Origin: Lethocerus indicus
Lineage: Eukaryota; Arthropoda; Insecta; Hemiptera; Belostomatidae
Reading direction: 5' to 3'
NCBI GenBank assembly: GCA_019843655.1
Contig: JACDQD010000006.1
Location: 19,610,246 to 19,674,245 of the forward strand
Length of the DNA: 64,000 nt
The position numbers and the translations under genes are program-made. Below, piece after piece: positions 49,139-52,100 of this stretch; the first letter of the stretch is position 1; the number at the start of each line of letters is the position of its first letter. Under the pieces are notes generated by a model. The model saw only the letters and a list, made by a program, of their open reading frames with translations, did no database searches and had not been told where the DNA came from.

Positions 49139-52100
49139 TCAATATTTATTGTTTCCATATCGACTATAATCGTAGGTATCATCATATTTGCCGGTATCGT
49201 AACTGTTATGATGGTAAACATTGTTGTCAATACCGTTATTATAATCGTGGCCGAAATCTTCGCTAGGCTTGTAGCTACCGGTATCATGACCGTAGATGTT
49301 GCTGGGGTCGTAGCTTCCATCATGGTGACCGTAGATGTTGCTGGGGTCGTAGCTTCCATCGTGGTGACCATAGATGTCGCTGGGGTCGTAGCTTCCATCA
49401 TGGTGACCGTAGATGTTGCTGGGATCGTAGCTTCCATCATGGTGACCGTAGATGTCGCTGGGGTCGTAGCTTCCATCATGGTTACCATAGATGTCGCTAG
49501 GGTCGTAGCTTCCGTCATGGTGACCGTAGATGTCGCTAGGATCGTAGCTTCCGCCATGGTGACCGTAGATGTCGCTAGGATCGTAGCTTCCGCCATGGTG
49601 ACCGTAGATGTCGCTAGGATCGTAGCTACCGTCGTGATCGCCTCCACCTACGGAGGTATGATCCTCGGTGTTGGTGTCCTCGTGGTGATGGCCTGTGGTC
49701 ACGTTGCGGTGGGGTCGGAACTGTTCCTTAAGCTGACCGAAGGCGACAGATGGTTGCTCGTAGTTAAATACGGTATAGAATTTGCCGAGGAAAGCGTCGC
49801 CGAGAATCCAGGTATCGTCACCGTTTGAAACGGTAAAACTAGTTATGCACACCGTTACGTAATGCCCGGTCAACTGAAATTATACAGGAATACTGTTAGT
49901 ATAATGCATGAGTACTATATGTGGTTTTGAGGTATGAAAAACAAAATTTATGCGAAAATGTGTTACACAATTATCTTGCCTGTAAAAATTTTTATTATTT
50001 TTCAAGAAACAATGTACGTTAGGCAAACATCTGAAGTCTTTATCAAGAAGTATATTTCGTTTTTATTTCTGCAAACTAATTTAAGTTTAAAAATTCGATA
50101 GAACAAATACGCATTTGTCCTTCGTCAATGTAGAAATAAATGATAAATCGAAGAAATTCGAATCACTAAAAAATTACTTACCACATCTATGTAATCTCTC
50201 CCTTCCAAAATGTAATCTCGTCCTCTAATACGGAACCTCAGCTGGGGCAGTTCGTCAATCTTATCGCAGTCGACCTGTTAAAACAAAAACGTTGGTTACA
50301 ACCGGTAGCCTTCAAATAAAATTGTCCACCGATAGCTCATTTTACACTCCGTACAAACACAAAAAAAAGGAGAAAAACGAACCGGTACAGCTCTAATTTG
50401 TTGAAAAAGTAAAGAAAAGTAAAGTGAGAGTTGAACACAAATGCAATTAGAGTTGAACCTTAGTTACTGTTGGGTGGCCCTCTCGCAGTCGCTCCCGTTC
50501 GGCTACTTGTGTTGTTAATCAAGAAGAAATACAAACCACCGGGGATTCACTCGAAATCCCGACCCTACAAACAACAACTGAGGGAACGAGACACTTTCAA
50601 AAACTGTTCCGAGAAGGCTGTTTGTTATAGAGGCTTACGTGATTAAAGGATTAAATTATTTTTTTAACGCTGTGTCAATTTTATATTTATAAACGACATT
50701 TTCAATGATATTAAATATACTAAACGGCTTCTGTATTTTGGAACTCATATAAAACGGAAGACATATCGAATGAGTGTATATGCAATGACCGATCTCTACG
50801 GTCTCAATGTGGTCGCAATTTAGTTCTAATATGTTAAAGATATAGAAACGCGTTTCTGACGTTTTATTTGCAACATTCGATGAATGATTTCCTCATTCTT
50901 CAAGTCATATCTTCTAATTGTATGTGATCATTTGCCATCCTCACCGAAAGTGCAATTATATTTCATATAGATTTTATTATTATTTCCAGAAAATCATTCC
51001 TAAAATATCTACCTAAATTCTGCGGTAACGATCAAATCAGATTGAGGTAATGGTCGCGTCGGTAATTAGAAATTACGTTAATGTATAGTGTACTCTACAA
51101 GAACAATAGAAGTATCACTCACCACGCCTGAGCCCATTTCGTCAACCTTGGCCCCGACGTACTCGTTCAAAGCAACAATGTCGTCGTGCGGTCCAATTAT
51201 ATTAGAACTGCCGGTGTCGGCAACTGCTTCACAGCCATTCTGGCACACACCTTTTTTCGAGAGACCGTCACCAACGGTGATGCTGAAACAGGAAGCGCTT
51301 ACTGCAGAAACTCAGCATTCTTAGTTTTCAACTAATGCATAAGCCAACTTCAGAAAATATCAGCAATCTGTCGCAGGCTTAATAATTTCATCTTCAATAC
51401 ACTTAGTACCCCAACTAATATAAGGAATAATGTTCGTACAAATGGAAATTCCAGCATATTTCGGGGGAGAAATTCCATTACTGCAGAATTCAACCTGGAA
51501 ATATAGAAATTCTCAATATACTCAATATAGAAAATACTGATCGATTTCGTGGCGAACTATTCAAAACTAACACAGTCCGACGCCTCTCGAAATTTAATGA
51601 AGGGATTCGAGAGGGTGAAGAGGCGAAAGAGACTACCGCCATAAAACAACAAAGTACGAATTCCTTAGTTCCAAAGAGGCCAATTAGAGAATGCACGGTC
51701 AGTCGCCCGCACAAAGGCTTCAACGGTGAAAAGCAACAAGATTCGTCTTCGCCGAGATTCCGAGCACTTAAATTAAGCAAGCCGAGTTAAATTTATTGGT
51801 GAAGATGAAACGAAAATTCATAGCATTGCTCTTTGCTTTTAGCAATTTTTTGTCGTATCAACTCAATTTTGTTACTAACGAGATATCGAACTAGGTTAAT
51901 GCGCCTATTTTATGTTGTTATTGTATGATAGATTGTTTTTCAAATTATTGGAAACATACGAGTCGACGGAGAACTGCCAGTACTCTTTCTGGCTGAGGGG
52001 AATGTAGTCCAGTGTGGTTGTGTCCACTTTAGTATCGTCGATTCCGCCGAATAGTATTTCACCGCCCACATCACCTCCTTCCTCCCTGTAAATTACGAAT

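Follow-up and report, generated by a model that had tools for sequence, protein, structure and literature searches.

Gene D of the bug Lethocerus indicus (Hemiptera, Belostomatidae), which encodes an aspartic protease of family A1, continues in frame past the final strand of the protease fold for a further 193 residues (residues 393-585). This extension contains a unit of 13 residues (39 bases) in nine near-identical copies and one diverged copy. The repeat tail is probably translated, and its protein sequence appears to be held while the silent sites drift. What is new here is the tail, which looks real and has no relative in the searches made; A1 proteases of this kind are themselves known. 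The gene is located in the stretch of 64,000 nucleotides analysed here, called the window in the following, which covers positions 19610246-19674245 of a 30.6 Mb contig in a genome of 427 Mb.

Gene D is encoded on the minus strand (56327-49139) by nine exons, which together give 585 codons and a stop codon in one intact frame (Table 1). The introns have AG/GT borders and the phases match throughout. Judged by eye, the N-terminus looks like a signal peptide. Gene D is part of a tandem cluster in the window and its right flank, where five A1 genes (A to E) occupy about 63 kb. Genes A to D are transcribed from the minus strand and gene E from the plus strand, about 14 kb past the right end of the window. 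Paralogue B is without a Cys pair at 30642-30749 (minus strand), where A, C and D read C..GCE..ADTG. A tRNA-Lys (CTT) gene is found at 53197-53272 on the plus strand, in intron 4 of gene D and opposite to it.

Table 1. Features of gene D and of the neighbouring A1 genes. Positions are window coordinates, which are continued past the right end for gene E; * denotes the stop codon.
Feature	Position	Strand	Basis
Gene D exon 1: start codon and hydrophobic N-terminus	56257-56327	-	GT donor, phase 2
Gene D exon 2: A1 propeptide-like segment, ...KESLKNYLN	54848-54980	-	translation
Gene D exon 3: first catalytic motif, FDTGSSNLW	54360-54483	-	motif and PF00026 match
Gene D exon 4: flap region, flap Tyr retained	54159-54277	-	translation
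Gene D exon 5	52188-52384	-	gene model
Gene D exon 6	51960-52085	-	gene model
Gene D exon 7: second catalytic motif	51123-51282	-	translation
Gene D exon 8	50182-50274	-	gene model
Gene D exon 9 (whole)	49139-49873	-	gene model
Exon 9, first part: final A1 strands, ...VAFGQLK, residues 342-392	49721-49873	-	PF00026 ends at 388
Tail linker, residues 393-419, His-rich, no Tyr	49640-49720	-	
Repeat array, nine units (residues 420-536) and diverged tenth (537-549)	49250-49639	-	
Tail C-terminal segment, residues 550-585 (36 residues), Tyr/Asn/Asp-rich	49142-49249	-	
Gene D stop codon	49139-49141	-	gene model
AATAAA polyadenylation-type signal 3' of gene D stop	49102-49107	-	sequence
Second AATAAA signal 3' of gene D stop	49087-49092	-	sequence
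Paralogue A, A1 exons by similarity, ends GRLK*, tail-less	18088-21578	-	
Paralogue B, A1 exons by similarity, ends GELKQHS*, tail-less	29335-34136	-	
Paralogue C, A1 exons by similarity, ends GKLKK*, tail-less	35575-40650	-	
Gene E, fifth A1 protease gene, ends ...FGELAEGL*, tail-less	78462-81413 (L003 4462-7413)	+	

The protease body of D is matched over both lobes by the PF00026 profile (D residues 70-388, profile positions 1-314 of 315; 315.8 bits at a cut-off of 19.9, E 4.8e-94). Both catalytic motifs read DTGSS, in agreement with the two DTG(S/T) motifs that characterize family A1, and the best relatives among solved structures are cathepsins D. With lysosomal cathepsin D the protein shares the A1 family, the propeptide and the two-lobed architecture. 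However, the non-heteropteran cathepsin D sequences compared here mostly contain the proline loop, either as DxPxPx(G/A)P or in variant form (shortened in two cases), whereas D lacks this loop before WILGD and has SNGDDTW in its place. PMC3886914 states that this loop had been proposed to characterise lysosomal cathepsin D. The marker is not a strict one, because the same paper mentions a related bug whose gut lumen contains a cathepsin D in which the loop is complete.

In a quick tree built from 32 selected sequences, D and 17 other heteropteran A1 sequences group together with an SH-aLRT value of 100, separate from the cathepsins D of other arthropods. D is placed near two assassin-bug proteins and the window genes B and C (support 86, drawn open), and Pristhesancus_3, a bug sequence in which the proline loop is complete, is not among the 18 heteropteran sequences of the group; in this tree A, B and C are represented by joined exon fragments, and the two outgroup sequences do not fall on one side. 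The nearest sequences, P0001 from Pristhesancus and P0016 from Rhynocoris, share with D the fold, both catalytic motifs and the lack of a full loop, and P0001 is 52.5% identical to D over 318 aligned body residues. Both proteins (392 and 391 residues, respectively) stop just past the last strand, whereas D has 193 residues more. The top-scoring relatives are proteins of 762 or more residues; of these, P0002 and P0003 comprise two A1 domains each and are genuine double proteases or else tandem neighbours that were fused in annotation.

The heteropteran expansion of A1 genes has been described before. According to the available portions of the respective papers, 13 Rhodnius A1 sequences form one clade that probably arose from a tandem array (PMC3886914), tandem A1 genes are found in Rhodnius (PMC5736985), and cathepsin D genes are more numerous in Heteroptera (PMC12653315). 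From similarly partial sources, aspartic proteases are commoner in the gut transcriptomes of two assassin bugs than in those of their venom glands (PMC7520181), and are found mainly in the gut and are most active at acid pH (PMC10031423). By its sequence, the body of D is an ordinary member of this known digestive-type expansion; the tail is the new part. The protein would be a secreted, digestive-type A1 protease of the gut, which is probably active.

The tail is encoded in the last exon together with the final strands of the body. The original prediction had described an A1 protease with about 190 additional residues within the same exon, and the count is 193 with no stop in between. It had further placed the repeat array at 49250-49639, which proved exact to the base, as the exon coordinates put the first base of codon 420 at 49639 and the last base of codon 549 at 49250. 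The ten repeats that were claimed are right if the diverged tenth unit is counted, nine being near-identical, and paralogues A, B and C end normally as was stated (Table 1). Overall, the observation was thereby confirmed to the base. Tandem Repeats Finder reports the array with a period of 39, 8.7 copies, 94% matches and a score of 542, whereas the six other tandem arrays in the window score 57-111.

Within its 193 residues the tail contains 33 Asp (17.1%), 29 Gly (15.0%), 27 Tyr (14.0%), 25 His (13.0%) and 23 Ser, and neither Cys nor Trp. A His pair opens seven of the ten units. Each of the nine core units has two Tyr, and the motif SYD is present in all nine of them, accompanied by DIY in six. 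The linker includes an N-glycosylation sequon, NVT, at residue 398.

An open frame alone is weak evidence for coding in this case, because the 39-base unit also leaves one further sense frame and one antisense frame open. Pairwise comparison of the nine units in the frame of D gave a pN of 0.041 and a pS of 0.424, whereas the two other open frames gave a pN/pS of 0.124/0.062 (sense, 8 units) and 0.120/0.075 (antisense, 9 units); such pairwise counts among repeat units are non-independent. Two of the three stop-containing frames likewise have a pN above pS (0.110/0.007 and 0.085/0.058). In antisense frame 1 pN is below pS (0.044/0.278, stop codons dropped), yet this frame holds 28 stops. On a most-parsimonious unit tree, 10 of the 14 parsimony steps among the nine units fall on third positions (binomial p 0.004), and a stricter, base-type-matched test with 11 distinct changes, seven of them silent, gave p 0.034.

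The units thus vary about ten times more per silent than per replacement site, which points to constraint at the level of the protein; given the p value of the stricter test, the case for such constraint is good without being overwhelming. This silent bias in the frame of the protease indicates that the repeat is probably translated and maintained, and makes a chance repeat or a purely DNA-level repeat unlikely. Further evidence for coding comes from the in-frame continuation, from a GC3 of the tail (0.591) that is like that of the body (0.582), and from the AATAAA signals just past the stop codon. The near-identity of the units had been attributed beforehand to recent expansion or homogenisation. 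Recent expansion stands, since units 2 and 3 are identical in their DNA; homogenisation alone does not account for silent differences that are about tenfold more frequent per site than replacements.

In what follows the last strand, D stands alone among the A1 ends located in this genome. A genome search with the last exon, in which as in all our whole-genome searches the best first-look candidates were scored, gave 10 matches. Besides D itself, seven were ordinary A1 ends, one was an unrelated repeat and one a chance likeness. The tail alone gave two matches, D and the unrelated repeat, and no second tail copy. These searches place the tail in D alone, which speaks against paralogues having the tail too, or its origin in another gene. 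The unrelated repeat (25% identity to the tail, E 0.018) is located on contig C95 (L030 1390-2220, plus strand); it is a different tandem repeat of the TWRNHVTSPSPAG type and open in several frames. The chance likeness on contig C3 (last exon, E 0.3) is to the last strand of D and the linker, and is without WILGD and without the repeat. An A1 gene on contig C11 (L034, G000:C11:6316400-6319900) was considered as a second tail bearer due to the long open frame around its last exon, but it reads ...GFADALLL* and is tail-less. In this gene DTAW and DTSA replace DTGS/DTGT and the flap region reads LALGPY, so that the motifs suggest a catalytically inactive relative of the A1 enzymes.

Eight of the nine A1 C-termini located in the genome end at most a few residues past the last strand, with only D tailed; one of the eight, on contig C10, belongs to a gene known from its last exon alone, and an A1 gene on contig C39 was left out of this count because a single exon is followed by the contig end. 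That exon (L035 97-225) is a first catalytic exon; over 43 residues it is 83.7% identical to a lysosomal aspartic protease from a termite, and its gene would seem to be the genome's cathepsin D of lysosomal type. A genome search with PF00026 gave at least 32 exon matches.

Searches for the tail in other organisms gave the same picture. Against a collection of 5.8 billion proteins, the last exon gave one weak match, to the protease body (7996 candidates scored), and the tail alone gave no match at E 10 among 5330 candidates; the search admits proteins of 0.55-1.75 times the query length that share exact words. As a local control, tail copies with 60% of their positions redrawn still scored E 5e-12 to 3e-17, with some positions left unchanged since the redraw used ten letters mostly common in the tail, while none of 20 shuffled tails scored. 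This suggests that even strongly diverged tail copies would have scored, aside from the word prefilter, which lies outside the control. The tail has no family at E 10 or better in Pfam or NCBIfam, the latter being a bacterial and archaeal library, and no match among solved structures. The claim that no enzyme with this tail has been described held for the protein collection, and in the searchable part of the literature no described A1 protease with such a tail was found.

C-terminal additions as such do occur in the family. Among the best 120 of 4981 scoring relatives of the body, 119 have a comparable C-terminus, and 10 of these have at least 20 extra residues: in one case a fused second protease domain, in nine cases 22-48 residues. 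The nine proteins (e.g. P0054, P0067, P0102, P0114) resemble D in having extra residues past the last strand, some of them acidic. In contrast to the tail of D, these extensions are short and not visibly repetitive, and no His/Tyr/Asp-rich stretch passed a screen of the 120 listed relatives.

What the tail might do can be approached from its composition. Its computed net charge is -28.0 at pH 7, -9.8 at pH 5.5, -3.4 at pH 5 and +4.4 at pH 4.5, and the charge crosses zero at a computed pI of 4.76. The charge-hydropathy rule predicts a disordered tail and a folded body. A predicted fold of the last exon alone, which is weak as it is based on a single sequence, has a pLDDT below 50 in residues 32-88 and 90-244 of 244. 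A works-like model, for which no homology is claimed, is given by the histidine-rich proteins of the squid beak, which like the tail of D (there by prediction) consist of disordered, modular His/Tyr/Gly repeats. In the text of PMC6884462 that is available, these proteins phase-separate in a pH-triggered manner for which Tyr and His are needed, and four tandem GHGLY copies are enough. The analogy is partial, because the tail of D is rich in Asp and works in the opposite pH direction: by the same portion of that source, the squid GHGLY repeats contain no Asp, are not an enzyme tail, and phase-separate as His loses its proton, whereas the tail of D sits on an enzyme and would become neutral as His gains one.

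Because of the dependence of charge on pH, the predicted disorder and the squid beak precedent, we tentatively favour the tail as a disordered, pH-switching module for retention or condensation of a secreted acid protease. In-frame growth of the 39-base unit would have added the disordered 193 residues to the C-terminus. At the neutral pH of the cell and the secretory route the tail would be a soluble polyanion; near the acid working pH of the enzyme His would be protonated and the net charge about zero. The many Tyr, His and Gly residues might then allow the tail to associate with itself or to stick to a surface or cargo, which would keep the enzyme at high concentration, or tethered, within the lumen or along its lining. 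The tail may also be clipped off by proteases. A more specific form of this proposal is somewhat doubtful: an acid-triggered condensation tag, by which the zymogen would be soluble at neutral pH and the released enzyme self-associating or surface-bound at gut pH, so that an enzyme of one bug lineage would have become self-immobilising by growth of a 39-base repeat.

It is rather unlikely, in our view, that the tail is a passenger without any role, that is, a short A1-type C-terminal extension grown by slippage, tolerated as disordered and trimmed in a protease-rich lumen. Repeat expansion is cheap and looks recent in this array, the other eight located A1 ends of the genome are tail-less, and the A1 terminus evidently tolerates additions, because nine of the 119 comparable listed relatives carry unrelated ones. 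Against this, silent changes exceed replacements about tenfold per site in the frame of D but not in the other open frames, and the segment behind the array, although outside the repeat register, is also rich in Tyr, Asn and Asp, which a bare slippage product need not be. That there is no such protein at all, either because the transcript ends or is spliced ahead of the array or because of an assembly error in it, is very unlikely: the tail is in the same exon without an intervening stop, polyadenylation-type signals follow the tail stop, the silent bias is in the protease frame, and the array lies well within a contig of 30.6 Mb.

Other readings assign a chemical function to single residues. 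Paired His with nearby Asp could serve as ligands of Zn, Cu or Fe-haem, and the tail would then store or detoxify these or control the enzyme; the abundance of both residues as well as the His pairs at the start of most units agree with this. However, an A1 enzyme is expected to work at acid pH, where His is protonated and a poor ligand for most metals; furthermore the tail resembles neither a protein family nor a solved structure in the searches above. We regard metal or haem binding as distinctly unlikely. Cross-linking of Tyr via DOPA or dityrosine, which would fix the enzyme in a salivary, cuticular or gut-lining matrix, is quite improbable. It would be in line with two Tyr per core unit in an open Gly/Ser/Asp context, but bug aspartic proteases are, in the accessible text of PMC7520181 and PMC10031423, mainly gut and not venom or saliva proteins. 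Finally, Tyr beside Asp, as in the SYD and DIY motifs, could be sulphated in the Golgi to give a strongly acidic tail that binds basic partners or inhibitors; this is a compositional guess and a most improbable one.

Few enzyme families have been studied as thoroughly as the A1 proteases, which as a rule are compact and two-lobed and stop at the last strand or shortly beyond it. In L. indicus one tandem copy has a 193-residue repeat tail that is probably maintained, and its tail-less neighbours provide natural controls. Gene D would therefore offer a clean case for the birth of a low-complexity, pH-responsive module on an existing enzyme. If the condensation reading is true, D would be a naturally occurring case of enzyme self-immobilisation in response to pH.
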